Positions 41,138-64,000 of a stretch of 64,000 bases of DNA are shown here, piece by piece. The stretch is from Streptomyces ipomoeae 91-03 (GTDB taxonomy: Bacteria > Actinomycetota > Actinomycetes > Streptomycetales > Streptomycetaceae): positions 1 to 64,000 of the forward strand of contig NZ_AEJC01000415.1 of NCBI RefSeq assembly GCF_000317595.1. The letters are read 5' to 3'. Every line of letters begins with the position of its first letter. The stretch's first letter is position 1. The position numbers were made by a program, and so were the translations under genes. The notes beneath the pieces were generated by a model. That model was not told the origin of the DNA, ran no database searches, and saw only the letters and a list, made by a program, of their open reading frames with translations.

Positions 41138-41151
41138 GGCACCGCGCCTGG

Positions 41152-42924: not shown

Positions 42925-42931
42925 ACGGCGA

Positions 42932-42971: not shown

Positions 42972-43005
42972 GCATGGAAGGCCCGTACAGTACGGAGTCA
43001 TGCAG

Positions 43006-44403: not shown

Positions 44404-44421
44404 GACCGTGCTCCCTTCTGG

Positions 44422-44474: not shown

Positions 44475-44515
44475 GACGATCTCCGAAACACAGGAAGACC
44501 GAGGGAGACTTCGTC

Positions 44516-44947
44516 ATGCCGATGATCCGGCTCACCGCCCCCGCTGGTTCGCTGACCGAGGAGGGCCGCGAGAAGGTCCGGCGCGAGCTGGCCGGTGTGC
44601 TGCTGCGCTGGGAGGGGGCGCCCGACACGGCGTTCTTCCGCGCCCAGGCGTGGAGCTATCTGGTGGAGCTGCCCGAGGGGGCCCAGACCACCGCCGAGGA
44701 CGACGCGCCACGGTTCCTGGTGGAGGTGACGGTGCCGCAGGGGGCGCTGTCCGAGCGGCGCAAGGCCGGGCTGGTCGAGGAGGCCACGAAGACGGTCCTC
44801 GGCGCCGCCGGGCTCTCCCAGGACGACGCCCTGCGCGTGTGGGTGCTGGTGCACGAGCAGCCCGACGGCACCTGGGGCGCCGGTGGCTCCGTGATCCGCT
44901 ACGCCGACCTCGTGGCGCTGGCGAAGGGGCAGCGGGGCGATGCGTGA
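44516..44947 (+). CDS. Tautomerase-superfamily protein with N-terminal Pro
   Basis: A 143-aa protein beginning MPMIRLTAPAGSL, so Pro is available as the N-terminal base of 4-oxalocrotonate tautomerase-like enzymes. Then comes LTEEGREKVRRELAGVLLRW and, in a second beta-alpha-beta unit, PRFLVEVTVPQGALSERRKA. The two-unit length suits fused tautomerase relatives. It overlaps the alcohol dehydrogenase start by eight bases. Probable role: keto-enol isomerisation of a substrate or product of that dehydrogenase. Confidence 0.72.
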   Translation: MPMIRLTAPAGSLTEEGREKVRRELAGVLLRWEGAPDTAFFRAQAWSYLVELPEGAQTTAEDDAPRFLVEVTVPQGALSERRKAGLVEEATKTVLGAAGLSQDDALRVWVLVHEQPDGTWGAGGSVIRYADLVALAKGQRGDA

Positions 44948-45950: not shown

Positions 45951-46045
45951 CCGCCCCTCGGGCACGGGCTCACCGCCCCTCGGGCACGGGCTCACCGCCC
46001 CTCGGGCCACCGACTCGCCACCCCTCGGACCACCGACTGACCGAC
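45951..46045. repeat. Tandem repeat after the alcohol dehydrogenase stop
   Basis: The 22-bp unit CACCGCCCCTCGGGCACGGG(CT) occurs about two and a half times, then decays into ACCCCTCGGACCACCGACTG copies. The repeat starts at the stop codon. Role unknown. Confidence 0.65.
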
Positions 46046-46085
46046 CCCGGGCTTCGGCCCACCGCATCACCCACCGGGAAACCCC

Positions 46086-46778
46086 ATGAACACATCCCTC
46101 AGCGACCCGCCGACGACGAACGGCGGCACCCCTCGACCGACGGAAGGAGAACTGGAGCGGCAGCGGGCGGCGATCGCCGCGCTCGGCCATGAGCTGCGGG
46201 TCCTGGTGGACGCCGCCGTGCGGACGACGGCCCCGGCGGAGGTGCTGCACCGTGTGGCGGACGGCGTGCGCCGGATCACCGGACGGCTGACCGGCCGACC
46301 GCGGGCGAGGGCGGAGGTCCCGGCCGTGGACGAGTTCCCCGGAGAGGTGCGGATGTACAGCCCCGTCACCGGCGCCGGCAGTCCCCTCGCACCGCCCATG
46401 CTCGTGACACCGGGCGACGGCGGCCTCGTCGGACTGTGCACCCCCGGTATCGCCCACGAGGGGCCGCCCGGCTACGTGCACGGCGGGATGAGCGCGATGC
46501 TGCTGGACGAACTCATGGGCCGGGCCTGCGGCGCCGCCGGTCTGCACGCCATGACCGCCTCCCTCCAGGTGCACTACCACCGGCCCGTCCCGGTGGAGAC
46601 GCCCCTGCGAGTCGTCGCCCGGGTCACGGGCACCGAGGACCGCAGGATCCTCGTGGAGGGCTCGATCAGCACGGACGGGCAGTCGGCCACCCCCTTGGTC
46701 ACCGCCGACGGTGTCTTCGTCTCGCCCGACCCGGACCGCGCCCGCGTCCTGTTCCCCGGCATGCGCGAAACACCCTGA
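46086..46778 (+). CDS. PaaI-type hotdog thioesterase
   Basis: A 230-aa protein. Residues about 105-220 form a hotdog thioesterase domain with PPGYVHGGMSAMLLDELMGR (the HGG active-site loop) and ASLQVHYHRPVPVETPLRVV. The N-terminal 100 residues are a helical extension not needed for the fold. Such enzymes hydrolyse acyl- or aryl-CoA thioesters. It follows the alcohol dehydrogenase after a repeat-filled gap and may be cotranscribed. The ATG at 46086 is preceded by ACCGGGAAACCCC, a weak ribosome site. Confidence 0.83.
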   Translation: MNTSLSDPPTTNGGTPRPTEGELERQRAAIAALGHELRVLVDAAVRTTAPAEVLHRVADGVRRITGRLTGRPRARAEVPAVDEFPGEVRMYSPVTGAGSPLAPPMLVTPGDGGLVGLCTPGIAHEGPPGYVHGGMSAMLLDELMGRACGAAGLHAMTASLQVHYHRPVPVETPLRVVARVTGTEDRRILVEGSISTDGQSATPLVTADGVFVSPDPDRARVLFPGMRETP

Positions 46779-46843: not shown

Positions 46844-47917
46844 TCAGCCGCGGGGCATCTCGGCCAGGCAGTCCTTCACGAGCTGTTCCGGGACATCGCG
46901 GACGAGTTCGGCGCCGTTCGGGCCGTCGAGGACGAAGGTGAGATGGCCCGGCGCGGTCCCGGCGGCCTTCTTGTCGAGCCGCATCAGGCTGATCAGGTCG
47001 TCGATGTCGGCGGTGGCCGGGAGCTGCCAGGGCAGTCCGTAGTGCCGTACGACGGTGAGGTGTTCGTCGACGCGGGCCTGGTCGATCCGGCCGAGGGCGC
47101 CCGCGAGGCGGCCGGCGAAGACCGTGCCGATGGCGACCGCCTCGCCGTGGCGGAGGTCGAAACCGGTCTCGGTCTCCAGGGCGTGGGCCAGGGTGTGGCC
47201 GTAGTTGAGCAGGTGCCGTAGTCCGGTGTCGCGTTCGTCGGCGGAGACGATCTCGGCCTTGCGCCGCACGCTCGCCGTGATCTGTTCGACGGTGGTGCGC
47301 TCCCGCAGGTCGCCGGCGCCGATGAAGTGGCAGCGGGCGATCTCGCCGTAGCCGTTGCGCCATTCGCGCTCGGGCAGGGTGGCGAGGTGGTCGGTGTCGC
47401 AGAACACGGCCTTGGGCTGCCAGTAGGCGCCGACGAGGTTCTTGCCCTCGGGCAGGTTGACGGCGGTCTTGCCGCCGGTGCTGGCGTCGACCTGGGCGAG
47501 CAGGGAGGTCGGCAGATGGATCACCGGGACGCCCCGGTGATAGAGGGCGGCGGCCAGGCCCACGGTGTCGGTGGTGGTGCCGCCGCCGCAGGAGACGACG
47601 ACGTCGCTGCGGCTGAGGCCGGCGTCGGCGAAACGGCGGCACAGTTCGCCGACGGTGGCCAGGGTCTTGTGGGGTTCGCCGTCCTGTGCCTCGATCAGCC
47701 GGTACGGGACGCCGGGGTCCGGGACGAGAGCGGCGGGGCGGGCCGAGACGATCACGGCACGGCTCGCGCCCAGCCCGTCCACGGTCTCGGCGAGTCGATG
47801 GCGGACCCCGGCACCGATGTGCACGTCGTAGGAGCGCTCGCCCAGTTCGACGCGGACCCGGCCCGTTCCCGTCCCATGGTCGCTCTTGTCGCTCTTGTCG
47901 CTCTTGTCGGTTGTCAT
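46844..47917 (-). CDS. 3-dehydroquinate synthase-like enzyme (possible aminoDHQ synthase)
   Basis: A 357-aa sugar-phosphate cyclase. NAD-site CGGGTTTDTVGLAAALYHRG, substrate loop VDASTGGKTAVNLPEGKNLV, metal ligands in YGEIARCHFIG (Glu), LNYGHTLAHALE (His) and LRHGEAVAIGT (His). It is not beside aroK or aroC, so it is probably a specialised paralogue. Next to a RifF-like amide synthase, the natural reading is aminoDHQ synthase for 3-amino-5-hydroxybenzoate; a shikimate-pathway or cyclitol enzyme is the alternative. In the E-x-x-K motif of DHQ synthase the Lys is Arg here. The N-terminus holds a KSD triplet repeat coded by a 9-bp tandem repeat. GAGGAG precedes the ATG. Confidence 0.8.
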   Translation of the reverse strand: MTTDKSDKSDKSDHGTGTGRVRVELGERSYDVHIGAGVRHRLAETVDGLGASRAVIVSARPAALVPDPGVPYRLIEAQDGEPHKTLATVGELCRRFADAGLSRSDVVVSCGGGTTTDTVGLAAALYHRGVPVIHLPTSLLAQVDASTGGKTAVNLPEGKNLVGAYWQPKAVFCDTDHLATLPEREWRNGYGEIARCHFIGAGDLRERTTVEQITASVRRKAEIVSADERDTGLRHLLNYGHTLAHALETETGFDLRHGEAVAIGTVFAGRLAGALGRIDQARVDEHLTVVRHYGLPWQLPATADIDDLISLMRLDKKAAGTAPGHLTFVLDGPNGAELVRDVPEQLVKDCLAEMPRG

Positions 47918-47981
47918 GCGTACTCCTCGCACGGCCGCGGCCGTGGTGGCGGTCAGGGGGCTTGCGGTGGTGGGGGCCGGG

Positions 47982-50678
47982 TCAGCCGACCAGGCTTTCC
48001 GGGTGGCGGGCGTGGAGTTCGGCGGGCAGGTCCTCGCGGCGTTTGACGTCGAGCTTGCGGAACACACGGGTCAGATGCTGTTCCACGGTGCTGGGGGTGA
48101 CGTGGAGCATGGCGGCGATCTCGCGGTTGGTGTGGCCGACGACGGCGAGGGCGGCGACCCGGCGCTCGGCCATGGTCAGGACGGTGGCGGCCGACCGTTC
48201 CAGCAGTCCGGCGTTGCCCTCGGGGACCAGCTGCTCGCACAGTCGCTCGGCGCCGCAGGACTTCGCGACGTGCCAGGCGCGACGGACGAGGCGTTGGGCG
48301 CTGCGGCGTTCGCCCGCCGCGGTGTGGGCGTCGGCGAGTTCGGTGAGGACGAGGGCGAGTTCGTACCGGCCGCCGTGCCGGCCGAGGATGTCGGCGGCCT
48401 CACCGAGCAGTTTCGTACGGCGGGCCGCCGGGCCGAGGGCGGCGGCGACGCGGAGGGCGAGGCCCCGGTACGGGGAGTCGCCGCCGCCGAGCCGGGCGAG
48501 GTGTTCGTCGAGCAGCCACTTGGCCTGGTCGCGGTTGCCCAGGTGCAGCCAGGCCTCGGCGGCGCTGGTGCACCAGGGCACGATGTGGGCGCCACCCAGG
48601 CCCCAGGCCCGGATGCGCTCCCCGCAGAGCAGGAAGTCGGCGAGGGCGGCCCGGTGGCGGCCGGCCGCGGCGGCGTACTCGCCTCGGGCGTGCAGATAGT
48701 GCAGGCCGTAGCGGGTCTGGAGGAGTGCGTCGGGCACGGGACGGTTGACGTGGCGGGCGGCGAATTCGAGGCGGCCGATGCGGACGGCGGCGGCGATCGC
48801 GGTGCCGAGCGGCAGTCCGATGACGACGCCCCAGCTCTCCGGGGTGATGAGGGACAGCGCGTTCTCGGCCTGTTCGGCGGCCCGCGTCAGGTCACCGAGG
48901 CGCAGGCATGCCTCGGCGCGAGCGGCGGTGAGCGCGGCCTGCCAGGCCGGGGTGTTGCCGCAGCGCGGGTCGGCGAGGAGTTTGTCGCACCAGTCGAGGG
49001 CCGTCTGGGGCTGTCCGGCGTAGAGCTGTGCGAGCAGGGCCAGCAGACAGGCCTCGCCGCCCCAGGGCGAGTCGCCGGCCCAGCGGAAGTCGCCGATGAC
49101 GGCGTCGATACGGGGCAGGGCGTCCCGGTCGAGTCCGCTGATGAGGTGCCCGGCGACCTCGGCGGCGGCGGACAGGGAGGGTTCGGTGGTGAGACGGCGG
49201 GCGTCGGCGGCGACACGGGGCTGGGTGCGGGGGACGAGGCCCGGGTACGTTCCGGCCAGCCAGGTCGACAGGTCGCGGAACTCCTCTTCCTCCGCGACGA
49301 TCTGACGCTTTCTCATATGGGCGAGGACGCGGGACAGTTCGTCGGCGCGGCCGTGCCAGGCGAGGCGGCGTACGACATCGGTCCACTCGCGGGTGCCGAG
49401 CCGGTCGGCGAGTACGGCGGTGACCGAGGACGCGAGGTGTGCGGCGGCGGCGAAGGGGGTGACCTGCCACTGGGCGTCGGCGAGTTCGGCGCGGACGGTC
49501 GCGCGGAGCACGGGTTCGCGGCAGGACGCCTCGGCGATGGTCAGATGGTCGACGGCCTCGCGTGCCCGGCCCTCGGCGAGCAGTTGGCGCGCGGCCTCGC
49601 GGAGTACTTCGCACTCCCAGCTCTCCCCGGCCTCACCGGCGCGGGCCAGCCGGTCGGCCACGACGGTGGCGGGGGCGCCGTCCTGGTGGAGCAGTTCGGC
49701 GGCCTTGCGGTGCAGGTCGGCCGTCTGCCCGGGCGGCAGGTCGTCGACGAGGGTGCGGGCGGCGGCGGGGTGCCGGAAGCGGTCGCCGTCCAGCAGTCCG
49801 GCCGTGGTCAGCGCGTCGAGGGCGCCGGTGGTGGTGCCGACGCCCAGGCCGGTGAGGCGGGCGATGTGCTCGGGGCGGGCTCCGTCACCGAGGACGGCGA
49901 GGGCCCGGGCGACGGCGAGCCCTTCGGGTTGGCCGCGCCGTACGCAGCTCAACAACTCGCGTGCGTAGGCCTGCTGGGGAGCGCTCCCACGACGTTCGTC
50001 GGAGATCAGCGCGTGCAGTAGCCGAAGGTTGCCTCCGCTGAGGTCGGTGAAGTCGGCGGCCAGCCGGTCGGCCTCGCGCTCGCCGAGTTCCGCGGCCAGC
50101 ACCTGGCGTACGCCGTGCCGGGTGAGCGGCCGGAGCGGAACGCGGTGGAAGAAGGGCTGCCGGTACAGCTCGGCGCACAGCGGGTTCTGGGCGGCATAGG
50201 TCTCGGCGTGGTCGGTGACCAGCAGCAGGACGGGCGCCGTCTTGATCCTCAGGGCGAGGTACGACAGACAGTGCAGCGAGGGTTCGTCGCCCGTGGAGAG
50301 GTCGTCGATGGTGATCACGACCGGGCGTCCGTCACCGGCGAGGCGCCGGAACGCGTCCTGGACTTCCCGACGGCTCTCGGGGATGCCGTCCCGCCCGGAA
50401 GGGACGGTCGGCAGGCCGTTCATGTCCGCCGGTACTCCGGGGCTGTCGAACAGCTGGGTGAGCACCCCGTACGGGAGGGACTGCTCGACCGGGGTGGCTG
50501 CGGCACGGAGCACCAGGGCACCCGACTGCTCGGCGTGCCGGACGAGGTCGAGCAGGAGCGCGGTCCGGCCGCTGCCCGGTGGACCGTCGAGCAGTACGTG
50601 CCGTCCCTGTCCTCTCGCGCACTCCTCGAAGAGGGTACGGAGCCGCAAGACACTGTCGTCCCGCTCGACCAGTCGCAT
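47982..50678 (-). CDS. LAL-family (LuxR) transcriptional activator 1
   Basis: An 898-aa large ATP-binding LuxR regulator. It starts RLVERDDSVLRLRTLFEECA and has Walker A GPPGSGRTALLLD and a Walker B-like region PVVITIDDLSTGDEP. A long helical repeat middle follows. It ends in a LuxR helix-turn-helix (LTMAERRVAALAVVGHTNRE, IAAMLHVTPSTVEQHLTRVF). LAL proteins are the usual pathway activators of ansamycin and macrolide clusters. It is divergent from the thioesterase across a gap with two 25-bp direct repeats. Confidence 0.9.
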   Translation of the reverse strand: MRLVERDDSVLRLRTLFEECARGQGRHVLLDGPPGSGRTALLLDLVRHAEQSGALVLRAAATPVEQSLPYGVLTQLFDSPGVPADMNGLPTVPSGRDGIPESRREVQDAFRRLAGDGRPVVITIDDLSTGDEPSLHCLSYLALRIKTAPVLLLVTDHAETYAAQNPLCAELYRQPFFHRVPLRPLTRHGVRQVLAAELGEREADRLAADFTDLSGGNLRLLHALISDERRGSAPQQAYARELLSCVRRGQPEGLAVARALAVLGDGARPEHIARLTGLGVGTTTGALDALTTAGLLDGDRFRHPAAARTLVDDLPPGQTADLHRKAAELLHQDGAPATVVADRLARAGEAGESWECEVLREAARQLLAEGRAREAVDHLTIAEASCREPVLRATVRAELADAQWQVTPFAAAAHLASSVTAVLADRLGTREWTDVVRRLAWHGRADELSRVLAHMRKRQIVAEEEEFRDLSTWLAGTYPGLVPRTQPRVAADARRLTTEPSLSAAAEVAGHLISGLDRDALPRIDAVIGDFRWAGDSPWGGEACLLALLAQLYAGQPQTALDWCDKLLADPRCGNTPAWQAALTAARAEACLRLGDLTRAAEQAENALSLITPESWGVVIGLPLGTAIAAAVRIGRLEFAARHVNRPVPDALLQTRYGLHYLHARGEYAAAAGRHRAALADFLLCGERIRAWGLGGAHIVPWCTSAAEAWLHLGNRDQAKWLLDEHLARLGGGDSPYRGLALRVAAALGPAARRTKLLGEAADILGRHGGRYELALVLTELADAHTAAGERRSAQRLVRRAWHVAKSCGAERLCEQLVPEGNAGLLERSAATVLTMAERRVAALAVVGHTNREIAAMLHVTPSTVEQHLTRVFRKLDVKRREDLPAELHARHPESLVG

Positions 50679-50827
50679 GAGTCACCTGCCAGATGTCCGA
50701 ACGAGCCCACCGAACCGAATGAGCCCACCGAAGCCCGGGAGCCGTCGGGACCACGCCGTCGCCGCGGCTCTTCGACCGAGCCGGTACCTCCGCCAGGTTC
50801 GCATTGATCAAGCTCTCGGACCCCCCT

Positions 50828-50937
50828 GAACGACCCCCTACTCGCCTGTGAAAATCTCCCTGGCCCCTGTGTCACCCCCCTTGTCGCCGGGGCGTTCCGG
50901 ACGATTTCCCTCGAACGGCCCCCTAATCACCGGTGAA
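50828..50937. promoter_or_regulatory. Direct-repeat activator sites between LAL1 and thioesterase
   Basis: Two 25-bp copies start at 50828 and 50913: GAACGaCCCCCTAcTCgCCtGTGAA and GAACGgCCCCCTAaTCaCCgGTGAA, lower case marking the differing positions (21 of 25 match). They are 85 bp apart, about eight helical turns. The CCCCCTA core (TAGGGGG on the other strand) resembles reported LAL binding sites. It sits in the 337-bp divergent gap, so it could drive either gene. Confidence 0.65.
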
Positions 50938-51015
50938 TTCGCCCCCGAGCCCTGTCGCGGAACGCCGTGGTGGTGAAAGCTGGCATGGTTTCGCGCGAAA
51001 GTGATGAGGTACGTG

Positions 51016-51771
51016 ATGCCGGCAGGTTCCCAGTGGATTCGCAGATTTCATCCGGCCGAGGAGGCGACGGCCCGCGTCGTGTGCCTTCCGCACGCGGGGG
51101 GTTCGGCGAGTTTCTACTTTCCGTTGTCCCGGGCGCTGACGCCGTCGCTGGACGTGTTGGCCGTGCAGTACCCGGGGCGGCAGGACCGGCATGCCGAACC
51201 GTGCGTGGACGAACTGGGCAAGCTCGCGGACCTCGTGGTGGACGAGCTGGCGCCGTGGCTCGACCGGCCGCTGGTGCTCTTCGGGCACAGCATGGGCGCG
51301 ACGCTCGCCTTCGAGGTGGCGACCCGGCTGCGGCGACGCGGCGTCGTACCGCTGAGGCTGTTCGCGTCGGGGCGGCGGGCGCCGTCGACGCATCGCGACG
51401 AGTCGACATATCTGCTCGACGACGACGCCCTGGTCGCCGATGTGTTCCGGATGGCCGGCGACGACATGGAGCTCCCCGACGAGGAGCTGGTGCGGATGAT
51501 GCTCCCGGCGATCCGCAACGACTACAGGGCCGCCGAGACCTACCGGTACCACCCGGGCGAGCCGCTGTCCTGCCCGATCACCGTGCTGACCGGCGACCGC
51601 GACCCGAAGGTGACGGCCGAGGAGGCCGCCGCGTGGAAGGCGCACACGACCGCCGGGTGCGAGGTGCGGACGTTCAGCGGCGGGCACTTCTTCCTGGCGC
51701 CGCACCTCGCGGAGATCACGCGGCTCGTCGGGGAGGCGGCGCGTGGGGCGCGGGGAATTTCCGGCTCATGA
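51016..51771 (+). CDS. Type II thioesterase
   Basis: A 251-aa alpha/beta hydrolase of the discrete thioesterase family that edits stalled acyl carriers. N-terminal VVCLPHAGGSASFYFPLSRA, nucleophile loop FGHSMGATLAF (Ser), TGDRDPKVTAEEA (Asp) and GGHFFLAPH (His). The ATG at 51016 has GAGG six bases upstream; GTG 51001 and ATG 51004 are weaker. It is the only rightward gene of the cluster edge and ends 21 bp from the convergent LAL2 gene. It should clear wrong or decarboxylated units from the PKS. Confidence 0.9.
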   Translation: MPAGSQWIRRFHPAEEATARVVCLPHAGGSASFYFPLSRALTPSLDVLAVQYPGRQDRHAEPCVDELGKLADLVVDELAPWLDRPLVLFGHSMGATLAFEVATRLRRRGVVPLRLFASGRRAPSTHRDESTYLLDDDALVADVFRMAGDDMELPDEELVRMMLPAIRNDYRAAETYRYHPGEPLSCPITVLTGDRDPKVTAEEAAAWKAHTTAGCEVRTFSGGHFFLAPHLAEITRLVGEAARGARGISGS

Positions 51772-51792
51772 GATCCATGGGGTCTGAGAGGC

Positions 51793-54474
51793 TCATGGGG
51801 TTGGTCGCTCGTCCGTCGGGAGCCACGGGGGCAGTTCGCGGCGTCCGCTGATGCGCAGCTTGCGGTAGACGCGGGTCAGATGCTGTTCGACCGTGCTCGC
51901 GGTGATGTGGAGGCGTTCGGATATCTCCCGGTTGGTGGCGCCGCCCCCGGCGAGGATCGCGACCCGGCGTTCCTGTTCGGTGAGCGCGGCGACCCGCCCC
52001 CGGCAGGGCTCCGCCGTCGTGCCGTCGGGCATGACCCGGTGGCACAGCCACAGCGCGCCCGCCTCCCGGGCGAGGGCCCAGGCCCTGCGGGCGGTGTCGC
52101 GGGCGAGGCGCTGGTTGCCGAGTTGTTCGTGCACGTCGCCGAGGTCGGCCAGGGCCGCCGCCAGCTCGAACTTGTCCCCGTGGTCCTCCAGGACGCCCAC
52201 CGCCCGGATGAGCAGATGGACGCCGCGCTCGGGACGGACCGCTCGGCCCAGCAGGCGCAGGGCGATCCCCCGCTCCCTTCCGGTCAGCGAGTGCCGGTCG
52301 AGCAGCGGTCTCAGCAACGCCCTCACCTCCTTCTTGTCGCCTTGGACCAGCCATGCGACGGCGGCGCCGAGTTCCCAGGGCACGCGTCCGGTGAAGTCGG
52401 GGCCCAGCTGGGTGAGGAGCCCCTCGCAGGCGCGGAAGTCGGCCAGCGCGGCGTGCGGTCGGCCGGCGGCGAGTCGGTACTCGCCGCGCGCGTACAGGTA
52501 GCCGAGTTCGTGGCGGCTGTGCGCCATCGCGTCCGGTACGACGGTCCTCAGGTACCCGGCGGCGTCATCGATCCGGCCGAGGCGGACGGCGGCGCGGACG
52601 GCGCATGCGACGGGCAGGCCGAGCAGCGCGCCCCAGCCCTGCGCCGGGACGAGGTCGAGCGCGCGTCGGGCGTGGTCGTGCGCGGTGGTCAGATCGCCCC
52701 TGCGCAGGGCCACTTCGGCGCGCAGCGCGGTGAGCACGGCACGCCAGACGGTGCCGATGTCGTCGAGCGCCGGATCGTCGAGCAGTTTGTCGCACCAGGC
52801 CTGGGCGGTGCCCAACTGATCGGCCTGGATGAGGACCAGGACGGCGATCGTCGTGGCCGTACCGCTCCACACCGAGTCCGCGTCCAGGCAGGTGGTCTGC
52901 AGGGTGAGTTCGGCGACCGAGGCCGCCGCCCGGCTCGGGCCCGTCCTCATCGCCCGGACCAGGTCGGCGGTGAACACCACGGCGGGGTCGCCGGTCTCCG
53001 CGCCGTCCGGCCGCAGGGTCGATGAGGTCGGTCGCCGTGGCGCGTCGAGCCGTGCGGCGTGCTCCGGGTACACGTGCCGCAGCCAGTCGGCGAGGTGACG
53101 GTACTGGGGATGGGTGCCGCGCAGGGCCTCCAGTACCGCGACCGCGTCGTCGGCGTGCCCGTACCAGGCGAGCCGCCACAGGAGGTCGCTCACCTCGGTG
53201 TCCCCGAGGTGGCCGGCGAAGAAGTCGGCCCGCTGGTCGGCGAGATGGCGGGCGGCGGTGGTGGGCGAGTACCGCCACTCCAACTGCGCGGCGGTAGCCC
53301 GCACGGCGGCGCGTTCACGAGCGTCCGCGCTGCCGCCGAGCGCCAGGTCGAGGCAGCGCAGCGCCCGGGGCACCCGCCCGTCGAACACCGCTTCGCGCGC
53401 CGCGGCCCGCAGCGTGGCCACGGCCCAGGGGGCGTTCGCCCAGGCGGCGCTGACGAGGTGCTTCGCGACGGCCCCGGCGGACGCCCCGCGCTCGTACAGG
53501 AACTCGGCGGTCCGCCGGTGCAGCGCCGCCGCCTCGGTGGCGACCTCGACGGTCGGCGTGGCCGCTGTGCGAAGGGCCCGCGAGCCGTCCGTGCGAGGGC
53601 TCGGCCCAGGGGCGCCGTCGGCCCCTGCCCTGCCGAGGAGCATGGTCTGCAGGATCAGCGGGTTGCCGCCGCTGCGGAGGAACAGTTCCGCCACATGGGG
53701 GTGTACGGGGGTGTCGCCGAAGTGGTGTGCGGCGAGGGTGGCCACGCCGTCGAGGGACAGGGGGTGCAGGGTGATGTGGCCCAGACCTGGCGTGCGGTAG
53801 AGCGCGAGCAGGCGCCCCGGTTCCGTGGCACCGTGGCTCAGGTCGTGGGTGAGGACGCCGAGGACACGGGCGGTCCGCAGCCGGGAGAGGACCTGGGTGA
53901 GGTAGCACAGTGACTCGGGGTCGACGTGGTGGGCGTCGTCGATCGCGATCACCAGGACCTCGTGCTCGGCCAGCGCGGTGATCTCCTCGGCGAGACGGTG
54001 GGCGTCCGCCGCCATCTCCTCCTCGGACGGCACATCCCGCCGGTCACGCAGAGGAGGCGGCAGGGGCGTTCCGGCGAGCAGCCGCCGCAGCGCCCCGAAG
54101 GGCACCGCGGCGTCGTCCGCCACGGCCGTGACGGCGACGGTGCGGACGCCGGGGCCCGCGACGGCGTCGAGGTAGTCGTGGACGAGTCTGCTCTTGCCCG
54201 TGCCCCGGCAGCCCTGGACGATGGCGAGCCTGCCGTGGCCCGCCGCCGCGTCGACCAGAAGCCGGTTGAGCATCGCCACCGCGTCCGCCCGCTCGACCAG
54301 TGAACCGAGCGGGCCGCTTCCCGCTGCCCGGGACTCCAGGATGTCAGGGAACGCGGGGGGCGATCCGGCTCCGTGTTCCTGCTCGTCCCCGTACACGGAT
54401 ACGCCGATGAACGCTGATTCGACAGCTTTCTTCCACAGCCACGACCTTAAGAGCGTTTCCGCACGAGGAAGCAC
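51793..54474 (-). CDS. LAL-family (LuxR) transcriptional activator 2, with TTA codon
   Basis: An 893-aa LAL regulator. Walker A is QGCRGTGKSRLVHDY, Walker B-like LVIAIDDAHHVDPESL, and the C-terminal LuxR domain LTEQERRVAILAGGGATNRE, ISERLHITASTVEQHLTRVY. From the GTG at 54474, about 60 residues precede the LVERADAV stretch where LAL1 begins, so the true start could be later. If 54474 is right, codon 9 (54448-54450) is TTA, needing the bldA tRNA, a common brake on Streptomyces secondary metabolism. It lies 90 bp after the amide synthase stop and may have its own promoter there. Confidence 0.85.
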   Translation of the reverse strand: MLPRAETLLRSWLWKKAVESAFIGVSVYGDEQEHGAGSPPAFPDILESRAAGSGPLGSLVERADAVAMLNRLLVDAAAGHGRLAIVQGCRGTGKSRLVHDYLDAVAGPGVRTVAVTAVADDAAVPFGALRRLLAGTPLPPPLRDRRDVPSEEEMAADAHRLAEEITALAEHEVLVIAIDDAHHVDPESLCYLTQVLSRLRTARVLGVLTHDLSHGATEPGRLLALYRTPGLGHITLHPLSLDGVATLAAHHFGDTPVHPHVAELFLRSGGNPLILQTMLLGRAGADGAPGPSPRTDGSRALRTAATPTVEVATEAAALHRRTAEFLYERGASAGAVAKHLVSAAWANAPWAVATLRAAAREAVFDGRVPRALRCLDLALGGSADARERAAVRATAAQLEWRYSPTTAARHLADQRADFFAGHLGDTEVSDLLWRLAWYGHADDAVAVLEALRGTHPQYRHLADWLRHVYPEHAARLDAPRRPTSSTLRPDGAETGDPAVVFTADLVRAMRTGPSRAAASVAELTLQTTCLDADSVWSGTATTIAVLVLIQADQLGTAQAWCDKLLDDPALDDIGTVWRAVLTALRAEVALRRGDLTTAHDHARRALDLVPAQGWGALLGLPVACAVRAAVRLGRIDDAAGYLRTVVPDAMAHSRHELGYLYARGEYRLAAGRPHAALADFRACEGLLTQLGPDFTGRVPWELGAAVAWLVQGDKKEVRALLRPLLDRHSLTGRERGIALRLLGRAVRPERGVHLLIRAVGVLEDHGDKFELAAALADLGDVHEQLGNQRLARDTARRAWALAREAGALWLCHRVMPDGTTAEPCRGRVAALTEQERRVAILAGGGATNREISERLHITASTVEQHLTRVYRKLRISGRRELPPWLPTDERPTP

Positions 54475-54520
54475 CTCGTCGCCATGTCTTGGTGCTGTCG
54501 TGACCGTTGGGTAAAAGAAT

Positions 54521-54568
54521 TCAGAGAACGCCCCCGTTTCTTTGTCCGTTCTTGCCGAAGAGTTTCAT
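54521..54568 (-). other. Possible 15-codon coupled peptide
   Basis: An ATG overlapping the amide synthase stop (ATGA) opens a short frame, MKLFGKNGQRNGGVL. No clear ribosome site of its own. It may be chance or a short leader before the LAL2 gene. Confidence 0.2.
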
Positions 54569-55347
54569 TCCACGGGGTTCTCGGGCGCGGTGATGGCGGC
54601 CACGACACTTCGGTACGCGGCGGGATGGACCATGGCGTGCACGATCTGTTCCTTCCCGTCCCGCACGGTCGAGCACAACTTGCCGGTCTGCGTGAGCTGT
54701 TCGTCCCCCACGAGACGCCGGCGCCGGATGATGGGGTCGATGGCGTCCCGCCCCGCGTCCGGCCCGACCATCGCGTCGAACGCGCCCGCCCACTCGTCGA
54801 CGCTCCGCGGCTTGAGCACGAACCGGTACGACGTCCGCCAGTCCGCGTCCCGGCTGCGGTACCGCAGCACGTGGTACTCGCCCTCGCGCACGAGCCGGTA
54901 GTCGACGCCGTCCTGGGTCTGCACGTCGGCGCAGACCCGCAGGGGCTCGACGAAGGACAGCCCGCCGAATCCGACGTCGGCCAGCCAGTCCTCCCCGTCG
55001 AGCCGGACCCGTACAAGCATGTGCTCGATCGACGGGCCGAACACATTGCCGGGGAACAGCGTGCTGGCCGCGATGAGTTCCGTCTCGAAGCCCAGCTCCG
55101 CGAGCAGCCGCCGGAACATGCCGTTGAGCTGGGTGCAGATGCCGCCTCTCCGGCCGCACACCACCGTCTCGAACGTCTTCTCGACGTCGATGACGGCGAT
55201 GTTGTCGAGGTCGAGCTCGGTGACATGACCGTTGTCGTACGGGATCGCCTGGAGATGGCCGCGGTGCAGCCGGGTGAGCGTTTCCAGGGTGGCCGTCGCC
55301 GGTCCCGCGTGACCGAGGGTCCGCAGATACCGATCCACGTCGAACAC
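54565..55347 (-). CDS. RifF-like amide synthase (arylamine N-acetyltransferase family)
   Basis: A 260-aa arylamine N-acetyltransferase-fold protein. The triad is in place: Cys71 (GRRGGICTQLNGMF), His109 (SIEHMLVRV), Asp124 (WLADVGFGG). In rifamycin, geldanamycin and related clusters such a protein takes the finished chain from the last ACP and closes the macrolactam on the aryl amine of the starter. GTG at 55347 has GGAGG seven bases upstream, inside the PKS gene's end, and the PKS stop lies immediately before it (TAG, then GC and GTG). Placement right behind the last module and the lack of a PKS thioesterase support chain release here. Confidence 0.92.
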   Translation of the reverse strand: MFDVDRYLRTLGHAGPATATLETLTRLHRGHLQAIPYDNGHVTELDLDNIAVIDVEKTFETVVCGRRGGICTQLNGMFRRLLAELGFETELIAASTLFPGNVFGPSIEHMLVRVRLDGEDWLADVGFGGLSFVEPLRVCADVQTQDGVDYRLVREGEYHVLRYRSRDADWRTSYRFVLKPRSVDEWAGAFDAMVGPDAGRDAIDPIIRRRRLVGDEQLTQTGKLCSTVRDGKEQIVHAMVHPAAYRSVVAAITAPENPVE

Positions 55348-55349
55348 GC

Positions 55350-58300
55350 CTAATCCTCCTGAGCGATCTGTGCGGTCTGTGTGCTCTGTGCGCTTTGTGT
55401 GCTCTGTTGGGTGATTTCCTGCCGCAGTTGCTCGGCGAGCAACTGCGCGGTCGGGTGGTCGAACACGAACGTCGACGACAGCCGTACGGCGGTGGCCTCG
55501 CTCAGCCGGTTCCGCAACTCGACGGCGGTCAGCGAGTCGAAGCCCGCCTCGAAGAAGAACGCGTCGGCGGGGAAGCTCTCCGCGGCGGGCAGGCCCAGGA
55601 CCTGGGCGGCGGTGCCCCTGATCAGCGTCAGCAGCGTCGCCTCCTGCTCCTCGGCGGACAGCCCGGCCAGCCGTACGGCGAGCGGTTCCTCGACCGGCGC
55701 CGCGCCGGCCGGGGCGATCGCCGCGCGTCGTACCCGCCGGACGAGCCCGTGCAGCAGATGCGGCAGCGTGCCGTCGGACGCCTGCGCGCGCAGGGCCGTG
55801 TAGTCGAGCCGTACGGGTACGGCGAGCGCGGTGTCGCCGTCGCGCAGCGCGGCGTCGAACAGGGCGAGCCCCTCGTCGGTGCCGAGCGGCGCGAGTCCGC
55901 CACGGGCCAGCCGCTTGCGGTCGGTCTCGGTGAGCCCGGTCGTCATACCGCCCGCCTGGTCCCAGAGGCCCCATGCGAGGGTGAGCGCGGCCCGGCCCTC
56001 GGTGCGGCGGTGGTGGGCGAGCGCGTTGAGGTAGGCGTTGGCCGCCGCGTAGTTGCCCTGCCCGGCACCGCCCATGAGCCCCGACACGGACGAGAACAGG
56101 ACGAACGCGCCCAACTCCCGGTCCTTGGTGAGTTCATGGAGGTTCCAGGCCGCGTCGACCTTCGGCGCGAGGACGGTCGACAGCCGCTCCGGGGTGAGCG
56201 CGGTGAGCACACCGTCGTCGAGTACGCCGGCCGTGTGGACGACAGCGGTGAGCGGCACGCTGTCCGGGACGGTGCCGAGCAGCGCCGCCAGCGCCTCGCG
56301 GTCGGTGGCGTCACAGGCCTCGATCCGTACCCGCGCGCCGAGTTCGGTCAGCTCGGCCTTGAGCTCGGCGGCTCCGGGAGCGCCCGGTCCGCTGCGGCTG
56401 GTCAGGAGGAGGTGACGGATGCCGTGCGCGGTGACCAGGCGCCGGGCGACGAGTGCGCCGAGGGAACCGGTGCCGCCGGTGACGAGGACGGTGCCGTTCG
56501 GGTCGAGGGTCACGGCCGTACCGGTGGTGTTGTCCTCGGTTCCGGTGCCGCCGGTCTGCGGGTGCGGGGCGTGTGCGGCTCCTCGGACGAAACGGGGGAC
56601 GTATGCCGTGCCGCCGCGCAGGGCGACTTGCGGTTCTCCGGTCGACAGGGCGGCCGGCAGTACGGCCGCCGTGGACCAGTCGGGCGCGTCGTCGTCGAGG
56701 TCCACGAGGACGACACGGCCGGGGTGCTCGGACTGGGCGGCCCGCAGCAGGCCCCATACGGCCGAGGCCGCCAGGTCGGTGACGGGGTCGTGTGTGTCGA
56801 CACCGACCGCGCCCCGGGTGACGGCGAGCAGCCGGGTGCCGTCGAGGGACGGTTCGGCCAGCCATGCCTGTACGACGGAGAGGACGTGCGTGGTGAGCGC
56901 GTGCACGGTTTCGGGGCGGTCGCCGGTCTCCTCTGTCGTGCCGGCGACTTCCAGGACGATCAGCTCGGGTGCGGGTGATCCGGCGGCCGTCGCCTTCGCG
57001 AGGTCGGCGATGTCCTGCGGGCCGTCGACGGGTACGGCGGCCGGCTCGGCCTGGATGGGGTTCGTGACGGCCTTGTGCCACTCGACTCGGTACAGGGACT
57101 CGGCGCCCGGGGTGGGCCCGGCGAGCCGGTCGGTGGCGGCGGGGCGGGCGACGACGGACCGTATGGCGACCACGGGGGCACCGGTGCAGTCCGCGAGTTG
57201 GGCGGTGGTGGCGCCGGTGTCCGACCGGACCACGCGGACGCGGATGTGCGGGGTGCCGGCGGCGTGGAGGGTGACCCCGTTCCACGCGAAGGGCAGCATC
57301 GTCCGCCCTTCGCCGCCCTCGTGGTCGCCGGTGAGCATCGACGCGTGGAAGGCCGTGTCGAGGAGGGCGGGGTGGATGCCGTAGCGGGCCGCGCCTTCGT
57401 GGTGTTCCTCGGGCAGCGCCGCCTCCGCGAAGACCTCGTCGCCCCGTGTCCACGCGGCCGTCAGCCCCCGGAAGACAGGACCGTAGTGATACCCGGCTGC
57501 CGCGACGGCCTCGTAGGCGGCGTCGAGGGCGAGCGGCCGGGCGTTCTCCGGCGGCCAGACGGACAGGTCGAAGTCGGCGGGCTCGGCCGTCGTGGTGAGG
57601 GTGCCGCTCGCGTGACGCGTCCACGGAATGCCGGGGTCGTCGCCCTCCGGCCGCGAGTGGACGGTCACTCCCGCGTCCGCCTGGACGGCGACCTGGAGTT
57701 GGACCGCACCGTGCTCCGGGATGACGAGCGGCGCCTCGATGATGAGTTCGTCGACACCGGCGTACCCGGTCTCCTGGGCGGCGTGCAGCGCGAGTTCGAC
57801 GAAACCGGTGCCCGGCATCAGGACCGTACCGGCGATGGAGTGATCGGCCAGCCACGGCTGGGACTTCAGTGAGATCACCCCGGTGAACACGGCGCCACCC
57901 GAGCCGGGCAGATCCAACTTTCCCTGCAGCAAGGGGTGTTCGGGGGCTGAGAGCCCCGCCGACGTGACGTCGAAGGTCCGGGGTGCCGTGTCCAGCCAGT
58001 ACGGCTGGTACTGGAAGGCGTAGGTGGGCAGGTCGACGCGCTTGCCGCCGGGGAGGAGGGCCGGCCAGTCGAGGGGGATGCCCCGGGTGTGCAGGACGGC
58101 GACGGCGGTGAGGAGCGCGCGGGGTTCGGGGTCGTCGGCGCGGAGGGTCGGGACGCAGGCCGGAGTGCCGACGGTGTCGTTGGCGGCCGAGGTGAGATGT
58201 GGGGTGGGGCCGAGTTCGAGGTAGGTGGTGACGCCCTGGTCGGCGAGGGTACGGATGGTCTGCTCGAAGCGGACGGAGTCGCGGATGTGGCGTGCCCAGT

Positions 58301-61300
58301 AGTCCGGGGTGAGCGGGTCGCCTTCTGCCGCTGTGATCAGTGGGATTCGTGGCTCTTCGTATGTGACGGTGTCGGCGATGGCCGCGAACTCGTCCAGGAT
58401 CGGGTCCATCAGGGGTGAGTGGAAGGCGTGGGAGACCTTCAACTCCCGTGCGCGGTGGCCCTGTTCGATGAGGGTGTCCCGGATCGCCGCGATGTCGTCG
58501 GCGTCGCCGGAGATGACCGTGTTGGTGGGGCTGTTGTACGCGGCTACGGCGGTGCGCTCGGTGAGCAGCTTGGCGACGGTCTCGGCCGGGGCGGTGGTGG
58601 TGATCATCGCGCCGCCGGAGGGCAGGGACTGCATCAGGCGGGCGCGGGCGGCCACGAGCTTCGCCGCGTCCTCCAGGTCGAGCACACCGGCGATGTGAGC
58701 GGCCGTCAGCTCGCCGATGGAGTGACCGGCCACGTGGTCCGGCCGTACGCCCCAGGACTCGACGAGCCGGTACAGCGCGGTCTCGACGGCGAACAGGCCT
58801 GTCTGGGTGTAGAGCGTCCGGTCCAGCCAGCCGTCGGGATCGCTGAACACCACCTCCGCCACCGGGTGCGGGGCGTGTCCGGCGAGATGCCGGTCGAGGG
58901 CCGCGCACGCCTCGTCGAAGGCCTGTGCGTACACGGGGAAGGCGTCGTACAACTCCCGGCCCATGCCTGGGCGTTGACTGCCCTGCCCGGTGAACAGCAC
59001 CGCCAGACGGCCCTGGAGGGGGCTGCCGGTGACGAGGGAGACATGGGTACCGCCCTCGGCCAGGGCATCCAAGGCCGCCCGCGCCTGCTCATGGCCCTCG
59101 GCGACGATCACGGCGCGGTCCGGTAGCTGGGCACGGGTCGTGGCGAGCGAGTACCCCAGGTCGAGCAGGGAGTGGGTGCCGTCGAGGTGGCTCAGCAGGC
59201 GGCGGGCCTGGCCGGCGAGGGCGGCCGGGCCTCGGGCGGAGAGGACGAGAGGGGTCGCCGGGAGGGGGTGGGGGGTGAGTGTGTCCGGGGTGATGATGTC
59301 CGGGATGGTGCTGTCCGGAGCCTGTTCGAGGACGACATGGGCGTTGGTGCCGCTGATGCCGAAGGACGAGACGGCGGCGCGGCGGGGGTGGCCGTTCTCG
59401 GGCCAGTCGCGGGCCTCGGTGAGGAGTTCGACGGCGCCTTCCGACCAGTCGACCTGCGGGGTGGGCTCGTCGACGTGCAGGGTCCTGGGCAGGACGCCGT
59501 GCCGCATCGCCTGGACCATCTTGATCACACCAGCCACACCGGCGGCGCCCTGGGTGTGGCCCACGTTGGACTTGAGGGAGCCGAGCCACAGGGGCCGGTC
59601 GTCGGGCCGGTCCTGACCGTAGGTGGCGATGATCGCCTGTGCCTCGATCGGGTCGCCGAGGGCGGTGCCGGTGCCGTGCGCCTCGACGGCGTCGACGGCG
59701 GTCGGGGCCAGACCCGCGTCGGCCAGCGCCTTGCGGATGACGCGTTGCTGGGAGGGGCCGTTGGGGGCGGTGAGCCCGTTGGAGGCGCCGTCCTGGTTGA
59801 CGGCGGTACCACGGACCACGGCCAGGACGTGGTGGCCGTTGCGCCGGGCGTCGGACAGCCGCTCCAGCAGGAGCATGCCGACGCCCTCCGACCAGATCGT
59901 GCCGTCGGCGGCTGCCGCGAACGACTTGCAGCGCCCGTCGGCCGCGAACACCCGCTGCCGGGAGAACTCGATGAACGTCCCCGGACTGCTCATCACGGTC
60001 ACACCGCCCGCGAGCGCCATCGAGCACTCCCCGGCACGCAGCGCGCGCGTCGCCGTGTGGAGGGCGACCAGCGACGACGAGCAGGCCGTGTCGATGGTCA
60101 TCGTCGGCCCTTCGAGGCCGAAGAGGTACGCGACCCGGCCCGCGAGCACGCTGCCCGCCGTGCCGAGGCCGAGGAAGCCCTCGACCTCCTGCGGGATCTC
60201 GTGCAGTCCCGACGCGTAGTCGTGGTACATCAGGCCGGTGTAGACGCCGACGTCCTCGCCGCGCACAGCGCCCGGGTCGATGCCCGCGCGCTCGAACGTC
60301 TCCCAGACCGTCTCCAGCATCAGCCGCTGCTGCGGGTCCATGGCGACGGCCTCGCGGGGCGAGATCCCGAAGAAGGCGGGGTCGAAGTCGGCCGCGTCGT
60401 GCAGGAAACCGCCCTCGCGGACGTACGAGGTTCCCGTGTTCTCCGGGTCGGGGTCGTAGAGGGCGTCCAGGTCCCAGCCGCGGTCGGTGGGGAACGGGCC
60501 GATGCCGTCCCCGCCGGCCGTCACCAGGTCCCAGAGGTCCTCGGGCGAACGCACCCCGCCGGGCAGACGGCAGGCCATGCCGACGATGGCGATCGGTTCG
60601 TCGAGCGTGGGGGTGGGGTTCGTGGTGGGAAGGGACGGGGTGGCGGAGGGCCGATTGTCCGTCAGGTCGAGTTCCGACCAGAGGTGGGTGGTGAGGGTCG
60701 TCGGGGTCGGGTAGTCGAAGAGGAGCGTGGCGGGCAGGCGGATCCCGGTGAGGGTGGTCAGCCGGTTGCGCAGTTCCACCGCCGTGAGGGAGTCGAAGCC
60801 GATCTCGTTGAAGGCGCGCTCCGCCTCGACGAGGTCGGCCGACGCGTGGCCGAGTACGGCCGCCGCCTCGCCCCGGACGAGGTCGAGGAGCGTGCGCCGC
60901 GCCTCCGTCCCGCTGAGCGCGGCCAGCCGGTCGAGGAGTCGTCCGGTGCTGTCACCGGTCGCCGCGTCCGCCGCGCTCGCGGCTCGGCGGGGCGCGCGGA
61001 CGAGCCCACTGAGGACCTTGGAGAGCTGGTCGCGGGAGGCTCGGCCGCGCAGGGTGTCGTGGTCCAGTTCGGCCGGGATCACGACGGGATGCGGGACGGT
61101 CAGTGCCGTGTCGAAGAGCCGGAGGCCGTGGTCGTTCGACAGCGCCACCATGCCGGTACGGCGGATGCGCCGCAGGTCCGCATGGCTCAGCAGGTCCGCC
61201 GACTGCTCCCACAGGCCCCAGGCCAGCGCCGTCGCGGGCAGGCCGAGCGTGTGGCGGTGCTGGGCGAGCGCGTCGAGGTAGGCGTTCGCCGCCGCGTAAC

Positions 61301-64000
61301 CGCACTGGCCGGGCGCGCCGAGGACGGTCGCCGTCGCCGAGGAGAACAGCACGAACGCGTCCAGGTCGTCCCGGTCCTTGGTCAGCTCGTGCAGGTGCCA
61401 TGCCGCGTCGGCCTTCGGGCCGAGGACGTTGGCGAGCTGCGTCGGCGTGTACGTGCGGACGACGCCGTCGTCGAAGACGGCGGCGGTGTGGACGACCGCC
61501 GTGAGTGGTGTGCCGGTGAGGAGTGCGGCGAGTGCGTCGCGGTCGGTGATGTCGCAGGCCTCGATACGGACGTTCGCGCCGAGGGCGGTGAGTTCGGTAC
61601 GGAGGTCGTCGGCGCCGGGGGCGTCCGGGCCGCTGCGGCTGACGAGGAGGAGGTTGCGGACGCCGTGCCCGGTCACCAGGTGGCGGGCCAGCAGTCGGCC
61701 GAGCGAGCCGGTGCCGCCCGTGATCAGGACCGTGCCGCTCGGGTTGAGCGCGATGGGTTCGCCGTTGCCGGTCGCCTTGCCCAGGCGCGGTGCGTACAGC
61801 TTGCCCGCGCGGAGGGCGAGTTCGGGTTCGCCGAGGGTGCGGACGGTGGCCGGGACATCAGCCGTGGGGCCGTCGGACGCGTCGGACGCGTCGGTGTCGA
61901 GGAGGGTGATACGGCCCGGATTCTCCGCCTGGGCCGACTGGACCATGCCCCGGACCGCCGCGGCGGCGAGGTCGGTGACCTGGTCGTCGGGCCCGGTGGC
62001 CACTGCCCCGTGGGTGACGACGAGGAGGTGGCTGGCGTCGAGTGCGGGCTCGGCGAGCCAGGCCTGGAGGAAGGCGAGGGCGTGTGTCGTCGCCGCGTGG
62101 ACGGCCTCGGCGTCCGTCCCTCCTCGTACGTCGAACCGGATGACCGGCGGAGGCACATCAAGGCCTCGCAGGTCCCGCAGGCCTCGTAGATCGTCCGCGC
62201 CGGAGACGGTGACGGCCTCCAGTACATCGGTCTCGGAGGTGGTGATCTCCGTCCAGCCGAGCCGGTGGAGGGAGTTCGCCGGGCCCGCTGCCTCAAGCTG
62301 CTCGGCGACCACGGGTCGTGCCACCAGCGACTCGACGGTGGCGACCGGGGCGCCGGTGCCGTCCGCGATCTGGGCGGCGGTGGCGTCCCGGCCGGCGGGG
62401 AAGATCCGGACGCGGACGTGGGTGGCACCGGTGGCGTGCAGGGTGACGCCGTTCCAGGCGAACGGCAGGAGCGTCGGAGTCTCGTCGCCGTCGTCCCTGC
62501 GCGAGGCGAACATCGCGGCATGGAACGACGTGTCCAGCAGCGCGGGGTGGATGCCGTACGCCCCGGCCTCGTCGTCGGGCACGGTGAGTTCGGCGAACAC
62601 CTCGTCACCGCGGCTCCACGCCCTGCTGAGCCCCTGGAACGTGGGGCCGTAGTGGTACCCGGCGTCGGCCAGCGTCTCGTACGCGCCGTCGAGCGGGATG
62701 GGCTGCGCGCCCTCGGGCGGCCAGACAGCGAGGTCGAAGTCCGCCGGGCGGGAGGCCGTTGTGAGGGCGCCGCTCGCGTGACGGGTCCAGGCCGCCTCGG
62801 AACCCGAACCGGCGATACGGGAGTGGATGCCGATCGCCCGCCTGCCGTCCCCGGCCGGTGGCTGAACCGTCACCTGGAGCTGGACGGCCACCCCGTCCGG
62901 GATCACGAGCGGTGCCTCGATGACGAGTTCGTCGATGCCCGCGCAGCCGGTCTCCTGCGCGGCGTGCAGCGCGAGTTCGACGAAACCGGTGCCCGGCATC
63001 AGGACCGTACCGGCGATGGAGTGGTCGGCCAGCCAGGGGTGCGTCCGCGAGGACAGCTGAGTGGTGAAGAGATGGCCGCCGCTGTCGGGCAGTTGGGTCA
63101 TCGCGCCGAGGAGCGGGTGGCCGGGGGTGGTGAGGCCGAGGCCGGTGGCGTCGAGGGGGGCGTGGTCGGCCGGTACGAGCCAGTAGTCCTGGTGTTGGAA
63201 GGCGTAGGTGGGGAGGTCGACGCGTTTGCCGCCGGGGAGGATGGCGGGCCAGTCGAGGGAGGTCCCGCGGGTGTGGAGGGTGGCGAGGGCGGTGAGCAGG
63301 GCGTGGGGTTCGCGGTGGTCGGGGCGGAGGGTGGGGATGCAGGCGGTGGTGTCGAGGGTGTCGTTGACCGCCGAGGTCAGGTGCGGGGCCGGGCCGAGTT
63401 CGAGGTAGGTGGTGACGCCCTGGTCGGCGAGGGTACGGACCGCCTGCTCGAAGCGGACGGAGTCGCGGATGTGGCGCGCCCAGTAGTCCGGGGTGAGCGG
63501 GTCGCCCTCCGCCGCCGTGACGAGCGGGATACGCGGCCGGTGGAAGGTGACCGTGCCCGCGATGGCCGCGAACTCCTCCAGCACCGGGTCCATCAACGGC
63601 GAATGGAAGGCATGCGAGACCTTCAACTCCCGGACTCGGTGCCCCTGTTCGGTGAGAGCGTCGCGGATGGCCGCGATGTCGTCGGCGTCGCCTGAGATGA
63701 CCGTGTTGGTGGGGCTGTTGTACGCGGCGATGGCGGTGCGCTCGGTCAGCAGACCCGCCACCGTCTCCGCCGGGGCGGTGGTGGTGATCATCGCGCCGCC
63801 GGAGGGCAGGGACTGCATCAGGCGGGCGCGGGCGGCCACCAGCTTCGCCGCGTCCTCCAGGTCGAGCACACCGGCGATGTGAGCGGCCGTCAGCTCACCG
63901 ATCGAATGCCCGGCCACCTGGTCCGGCCGTACACCCCACGACTCCACCAGCCGGTACAGCGCGGTCTCCACCGCGAACAGCCCCGACTGCGTGTACAGCG
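55350..64000 (-). CDS. Type I modular polyketide synthase, final two modules (5' end beyond window)
   Basis: At least 2,880 codons, open to the right edge. Order from the edge: AT (partial, to about 63180), DH (63125-62290), KR (62275-60970), ACP (60945-60670), then KS (60600-59320), AT (59005-57990), DH (57960-57130), KR (57090-55720), ACP (55680-55420). Both ATs have GHSIGE and HAFH, the malonyl-CoA type. Both DHs have H-x3-G-x4-P ([11 protein letters not shown]) and a later Asp (HPALLD). Both KRs have GTGSLG, Ser-Tyr-Asn sites and the B-type DD pair (VFDDGV, VLDDGV). KS has DTACSSS, EAHGTGT and KSNVGHT. ACPs have GFDSL. No ER and no thioesterase. The C-terminus is a Gln-Thr-Ser repeat, [18 protein letters not shown]. 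Confidence 0.95.
58513..58716 (-). repeat. AT segment nearly identical to that of the preceding module
   Basis: Inside the PKS, this stretch matches 63697-63900 at a constant offset of 5,184 bp. It includes an exact run of about 70 bases from 58585 and another of about 55 bases after one mismatch. Similar close matching continues through the GHSIGE region and parts of the DH. Recent duplication or gene conversion between modules is likely. Confidence 0.7.

Follow-up and report, generated by a model that had tools for sequence, protein, structure and literature searches.

The stretch analysed here (the window, 64,000 nucleotides) comprises bases 1-64000 of contig NZ_AEJC01000415.1 (C414, 101,585 bp) of the draft genome of Streptomyces ipomoeae 91-03 (10.4 Mb in 686 contigs; C297, C150, C586, C637, and C375, which appear below, are further contigs of the same draft). 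Its right-hand part holds the 3' part of a polyketide synthase (PKS) gene and, next to it, genes for an amide synthase, two regulators, a discrete thioesterase, and an aminodehydroquinate (aminoDHQ) synthase, which very probably form the release end of a near-complete cluster for a naphthalenic member of the ansamycins, a family that includes rifamycins, geldanamycins, and maytansinoids.

Release end and cluster border

The genes at the release end are as follows, LAL standing for large ATP-binding LuxR-family regulator.

46844..47917, minus strand: aminoDHQ synthase, RifG-type, 357 aa (DHQ_synthase/DHQS_C), at the left end of the conserved cluster
47982..50678, minus strand: LAL regulator 2, 898 aa (AAA_16 and GerE, the LuxR helix-turn-helix)
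51001..51771, plus strand: discrete type II thioesterase, 256 aa (PF00975, 181 bits)
51793..54474, minus strand: LAL regulator 1, 893 aa (AAA_16 and GerE)
54565..55347, minus strand: amide synthase of the RifF/GdmF type with arylamine N-acetyltransferase (NAT) fold, 260 aa (PF00797), GTG start
55350..64000, minus strand: 3' part of the last PKS gene (stop at 55350), with module 10 from its acyltransferase (AT) onward and the whole of module 11: ketosynthase (KS), malonyl AT (ATmal), dehydratase (DH), ketoreductase (KR), and acyl carrier protein (ACP)

The GTG start of the amide synthase lies 2 nt after the stop of the last PKS gene, whose final domain is an ACP with no thioesterase domain behind it. 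The adjacency of the two genes and the missing thioesterase domain had been claimed in an earlier sequence-only reading of this DNA, together with a full catalytic triad, and the Cys, His, and Asp (residues 71/109/124, the GTG counted) are indeed invariant in the alignment (n=9). GdmF is the best relative with a solved structure in the Protein Data Bank (E 4e-34). The combination expected of an ansamycin cluster, a thioesterase-less terminal PKS adjoined by an amide synthase with Cys-His-Asp, is present. The same reading was also right about the two LAL activators and the dehydroquinate (DHQ) synthase paralogue (likely start 47917), and about a discrete thioesterase, for which the strand is to be corrected: the minus-strand open reading frame at 50923-51705 matches no Pfam or NCBIfam model, and the thioesterase is the plus-strand gene at 51001-51771.

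The five genes from amide synthase through LAL 1, type II thioesterase, and LAL 2 to DHQ synthase recur in Streptomyces sp. MA5143a (hereafter the sibling) in the same order and orientations, the thioesterase there being likewise in opposite orientation, with protein identities of 88/69/85/85/89%; given this recurrence, the conserved block of the window is not a chance arrangement. The DNA match to MA5143a ceases at C414:46840, and the sibling stretch goes 2.2 kb further without match, so that the left edge reported here is very likely the edge of the cluster. On the right the window ends arbitrarily: the last PKS gene reaches contig position 71159, beyond the window, and the PKS genes go on to the end of C414 (C414:101585) and then onto C297 and C150.

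Amide-synthase loci were collected by a pattern-based scan of one genome per species (84,980 species), from which 80 loci were kept; neighbourhoods were scanned for 60 of these 80 (L070-L129, the 20 weakest being left out), 59 of them besides MA5143a. Among the matches listed, the closest amide synthase is that of MA5143a (88%), followed by one at 46% (records near the own genome may be missing from this set), and across 392 genomes of the genus the best one besides the own is 49% identical. Of the 59 other loci, 9 have LALs matching these two within the flanks fetched. In S. seoulensis A01 (L071, L079), two different amide-synthase/PKS loci were observed, one of which has an adjacent monooxygenase dependent on flavin adenine dinucleotide (FAD) and the other none in the fetched stretch. 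The second NAT gene of S. ipomoeae, on C637, was ruled out as a member of the cluster. It lies (L056:7526-17198) with genes for an AurF-type N-oxygenase, a chorismate-binding/glutamine amidotransferase (GATase) protein, an aminotransferase IV, a UbiA prenyltransferase, a P450, and a 3-deoxy-D-arabino-heptulosonate 7-phosphate (DAHP) synthase, and this locus is probably a separate aminobenzoate-derived prenylated cluster.

Linkage to the starter genes and the assembly line

The contig ends show no exact sequence overlap, and contigs of the sibling were therefore used for bridging. Sibling contig L156 covers C150 to its end and then the start of C297, with 299 bp between them. The second joint is bridged by sibling contig L160, in which a match to the last 136 bp of C297 (90%) is followed after 18 bp by a match to the end of C414 (91%); two more methylmalonyl-AT ends reach 86-88%, versus 90% for the last 136 bp of C297. 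Contigs C483, C232, and C514 were also picked out as PKS contigs and play no part in this reconstruction. We conclude that the cluster is near-complete and was split by the assembly into C150 (starter genes and loading module), C297, and the reverse strand of C414. With the RifN-like gene taken as its far end, its length is about 75.7 kb.

An adenylating loading module and a synthase for 3-amino-5-hydroxybenzoic acid (AHBA) to the right of the window, on which the sequence-only reading had staked its claim beforehand, were both found, on the same assembly line by way of the sibling contigs. The AHBA synthase (C150:15932-17083) has RifK (1b9h) as its best solved match (616 bits, residues 4-381), with the next different solved enzyme at 196 bits, and is 93% identical to its MA5143a counterpart. 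It is the only one of its kind among the 17 DegT-family matches in the genome, the other 16 being unlike it (best full-length identity 31%). C150 also carries RifL-like, RifJ-like (type II dehydroquinase), RifN-like (ROK), and RifM-like (HAD) genes, an FAD monooxygenase gene, and a luciferase-like monooxygenase gene. Genes of the rifG/J/L/M/N types are all present, the G type on C414 and the J, L, M, and N types, assigned by family and by likeness to other AHBA loci, on C150. The aminoDHQ synthase has DHQ-synthase homologues of 60-72% identity at 31 of the 59 other amide-synthase loci, within the flanks fetched, whereas it shares 45% identity over 197 residues with its sole other match in its own genome, and the aroB equivalog model matches it below its cut-off. 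Being close to the homologues at amide-synthase loci and far from the other match in S. ipomoeae, it is part of AHBA supply.

The loading gene on C150 encodes an AMP-binding adenylation domain (A, 270 bits), a KR remnant (KR*), an ACP, and a KS, and runs off the contig. Together with C297 and C414 it gives the following order, in which ATmmal is a methylmalonyl AT, ER an enoylreductase, and lower-case dh a DH read as inactive; AT specificity was read from HAFH and YASH motifs, which we take to mark malonyl and methylmalonyl, and DH and KR states from catalytic motifs only.

Loading module: A-KR*-ACP
M1: KS-ATmal-KR-ACP
M2: KS-ATmal-ACP, without KR
M3: KS-ATmmal-KR(Tyr to Ser)-ACP, dead KR
M4: KS-ATmal-DH-ER-KR-ACP
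M5: KS-ATmal-dh-KR-ACP
M6: KS-ATmmal-DH-KR-ACP
M7: KS-ATmal-dh-KR-ACP
M8: KS-ATmmal-dh-KR(Tyr to His)-ACP
M9, M10, and M11: each KS-ATmal-DH-KR-ACP

The rules for DH and KR motifs are stated in the part of the chaxamycin paper available to us (PMC4551226). The dead-KR residues of M3 and M8 are identical in MA5143a.

Two early modules that would leave ketones (M2 without KR, M3 with an inactive KR) are the first naphthalenic trait, and the second is an FAD monooxygenase (PF01494) of the Orf19 class, a class assigned by gene position. Homologues of this monooxygenase occur in two placements in the scanned loci, some adjoining the amide synthase and sharing its strand, others lying on the opposite strand, for the most part on the far side of RifN. 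Because homologues also stand beside the amide synthase in other loci, the enzyme could not serve as a simple naphthalenic marker and a tree was needed, in which (n=26) the enzyme of this cluster groups with the RifN-side class (96/99). The available part of PMC4551226 describes the naphthalenic pattern as a short inactive loading KR, a Tyr-less KR in M3, and an Orf19 homologue (a hydroxylase) for the naphthalene ring, and all three traits are present in this cluster.

Taken together, the cluster very probably combines an AHBA start, 11 modules, naphthalene closure, and release by an amide synthase. Gene content and order, linkage through the sibling, domain order, the intact triad, and the dead KR residues with their conservation are backed by sequence, and from established knowledge of the family we infer the AHBA starter, naphthalene closure, amide-synthase release, activation by LALs, and an editing thioesterase. 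RifG/J/K/L/M/N-type enzymes would make AHBA, which the A-KR*-ACP module would load and the 11 modules extend. The second (naphthalene) ring would be closed through the non-reducing M2 and M3 and the Orf19-class FAD monooxygenase, and the acyl chain, predicted from the last three modules to end in a triene, would pass to the Cys of the NAT-fold amide synthase, where the AHBA amine could close the macrolactam. The two LALs would switch on the genes, and the type II thioesterase would edit. Before the changes of naphthalene closure, the domain order predicts a ring-closed lactam of C32H41NO8 ([M+H]+ 568.290), so that the scaffold is checkable by mass.

Several points weigh against this reading. 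A dedicated aminoDAHP synthase (RifH) was not found in the cluster contigs, class II DAHP synthases being present only on C586, C637, and C375, and two of these three contigs carry other aromatic-pathway genes beside them. The loading gene loses its frame over the first ~70 codons in the draft; the sibling gene reads in frame there. The two classes of FAD monooxygenase are labelled by gene position and not by assayed function. Finally, in chaxamycin two DHs are presumed inactive despite intact motifs (PMC4551226).

At the 5' end of the loading gene (C150 ~19060-19290, L023 ~13060-13290), a few one-base differences from the sibling disrupt the frame; they are probably draft errors and possibly real. 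RifH-position proteins gave no match in the fetched parts of loci L070, L078, L081, L082, L084, L087, and L156, and one match, in L121. The DAHP synthase of C375 was considered as a RifH and found unsupported, its neighbours being a chorismate-binding/GATase protein and a short-chain dehydrogenase/reductase. This divergent class II enzyme and its neighbours (L069:9420-14530) suggest another chorismate-derived metabolite cluster.

On C414, the region bordering the cluster (40661-46778) encodes two tautomerase-fold proteins, an AidB-type acyl-CoA dehydrogenase, a TetR regulator, a zinc alcohol dehydrogenase, and a hotdog-fold thioesterase (46086-46778, plus strand); the last lies outside the conserved block, and DNA homology to MA5143a ends before these genes. 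Further away and outside the cluster (28361-40104), genes for an enolase-superfamily enzyme, an ABC-transporter ATPase, a beta-propeller lactonase, and an aconitase-family protein lie near one another and may form a sugar-acid catabolic locus.

The luciferase-like monooxygenase

The luciferase-like monooxygenase gene lies on C150 between the FAD monooxygenase gene and rifJ, and the best paralogue of its product in the same genome is 38% identical. Homologues at 73-74% identity were found in 5 other genomes among the 392 of the genus, each time immediately next to an amide-synthase gene (91-115 nt between the start of the monooxygenase and the matched part of the amide synthase); in three genus genomes with relatives at 54-61%, no amide synthase reached the cut-off. 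Among the 60 scanned amide-synthase loci, 11 carry such a monooxygenase (72-74% identical). Eight of these loci were taken for module reading, and 7 remained after one (L076) proved to have no readable PKS frame, L062 and L085 being the same S. iranensis contig and counted once; the penultimate module is methylmalonyl (KS-ATmmal) without KR in 6 of the 7. The amide synthases of these luciferase-like-type loci form one clade (99/97), and those of S. ipomoeae (42-45% identical to that clade) and MA5143a form a separate branch (100/100, stem 0.56) inside a larger clade (100/99) shared with them.

Since the only late ketone-leaving module here (M8) is also methylmalonyl, the luciferase-like monooxygenase could insert oxygen next to the M8 ketone, before three further extensions, a reading for which the evidence appears about evenly balanced. 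Tentatively, we picture oxygen inserted into the PKS-bound chain at M8, three extensions that build a conjugated triene, and macrolactamization by the NAT-fold enzyme, giving a C32 ansamycin with a lactam and an ester and a core without the methyl of the first extender, in which the M8 ketone would stem from a point loss of the KR tyrosine and not from domain loss. The corresponding lactam with inserted oxygen is predicted as C32H41NO9 ([M+H]+ 584.285) before naphthalene-closure changes. The cluster would then be a comparison case for where along an assembly line oxygen insertion can occur.

Against insertion at M8 stands the position of the gene, which is part of the AHBA block and does not adjoin the amide synthase as in hygrocin-type clusters. 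The KR-dead module is also fourth from last (M8 of 11) and not penultimate, and in locus L082 (S. misionensis) the penultimate module is reducing and carries DH and KR, although a KR-less module may there have been lost or collapsed in assembly. A serious alternative, which falls just short of an even chance, is that the product is the same naphthalenic ansamycin and the luciferase-like enzyme acts after the PKS, as an oxygenase for hydroxylation or quinone formation, the M8 ketone staying in place with no oxygen inserted. Luciferase-like families are many, no NCBIfam model reaches its cut-off (among the best 25 of 27 matches), the function is read from sequence, and the gene is displaced from the amide synthase, all of which would suit this alternative; the consistent placement of the 73-74% form beside an amide synthase, the KR-less methylmalonyl module that accompanies the enzyme in most readable loci, and the methylmalonyl M8, with a KR defect kept in the sibling, argue for insertion. 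OvmO, to judge from the title of its paper as cited in PMC9686540, reportedly inserts oxygen on the PKS in olimycin, which also speaks against a post-PKS role. For divergolides and hygrocins, Baeyer-Villiger oxygenation has been proposed to act on the macrolactam intermediate after ring closure, in the part of PMC9668088 available.

Cluster type and known relatives

The sequence-only reading had placed the locus at the edge of an ansamycin cluster and likened it to the geldanamycin group. The AHBA synthase and the loading module uphold the former, whereas the modules, the monooxygenase tree, and the gene inventory do not favour the latter. A benzenoid cluster of the geldanamycin/macbecin kind would share the two LALs and the GdmF-like amide synthase, and its FAD monooxygenase would belong to the class beside the amide synthase, which we take to be that of GdmM. 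This alternative appears improbable, given M2 without KR, the Tyr-less KR of M3, and the grouping of the monooxygenase with the RifN-side and not the amide-synthase-side class. Moreover, no gdmN-type, carbamoyltransferase, or methoxymalonyl-type gene, and no GdmM-class monooxygenase beside the amide synthase, was found among the called cluster genes. In the available part of PMC6784220, the gdm cluster likewise has an aminoDHQ synthase and two LALs, and geldanamycin is made by seven modules, versus 11 here, with a benzoquinone core.

That the cluster is an already known one for hygrocin or divergolide is about as improbable. In the related loci, presumably hygrocin or divergolide clusters, the luciferase-like monooxygenases next to the amide synthase are 72-74% identical to the one here, and the amide synthases share one larger clade. 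However, the amide synthase has its own long-stemmed branch at low identity to that clade, the monooxygenase gene is placed among the AHBA genes, and the last modules are three malonyl DH-KR modules after the dead KR of M8 instead of a penultimate KR-less methylmalonyl module followed by one malonyl DH-KR module. A match to naphthomycin, which has a longer chain, was also considered; a paper search aimed at it gave no hit. It is scarcely credible that the three contigs are separate loci, the NAT-fold enzyme an ordinary arylamine N-acetyltransferase, and the PKS next to it that of an unrelated macrolide: the assembly is fragmented, its contig ends do not overlap exactly, and 18 of 29 Ketoacyl-synt_C matches lie on other contigs, but both joints are bridged by sibling contigs, the single AHBA synthase stands ahead of the PKS loading module, and the NAT-fold gene starts 2 nt past a PKS without thioesterase.

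Searches of open-licence papers turned up no description of this cluster. We regard it as a variant of naphthalenic ansamycin clusters that is new in this form, although the kind is already known. The closest system is that of MA5143a (NZ_OLMK01000061.1 and others), which has the same cluster with the same gene order, 69-93% protein identity, and the same dead KR residues, likewise split over several contigs. This strain appears in the available part of PMC6490886 as the source of BLAST hits for ossamycin proteins, and no ansamycin from it was seen in that part.

With rifamycin and chaxamycin the cluster has in common the AHBA genes, M2 without KR, the Tyr-less KR of M3, the Orf19-class FAD monooxygenase, and a thioesterase-less last PKS followed by the amide synthase, and with chaxamycin (cxm) also the A-KR*-ACP loading module, as far as the available part of PMC4551226 covers them. 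It differs in having 11 modules and not 10, three methylmalonyl modules, and three terminal malonyl DH-KR modules, and its M1 is malonyl while that of cxm is methylmalonyl. Unlike these two systems, it carries a luciferase-like monooxygenase gene, RifG adjoins the LALs instead of standing in a G-H-I-K row, and neither RifH nor RifI was found in its contigs. With geldanamycin (gdm) it shares the two LALs, the aminoDHQ synthase, and the GdmF-like amide synthase, and differs in module logic and in the class of FAD monooxygenase. The clusters of S. iranensis, S. samsunensis, S. fumanus, and others in which a luciferase-like monooxygenase gene adjoins that of the amide synthase, and which are probably of hygrocin/divergolide/olimycin type, share the larger amide-synthase clade, a luciferase-like enzyme at 72-74% identity, and a methylmalonyl module that leaves a beta-ketone; unlike them, the S. 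ipomoeae cluster keeps the KR in a Tyr-to-His form, has it in module 8 of 11, and carries the monooxygenase gene in the AHBA block.

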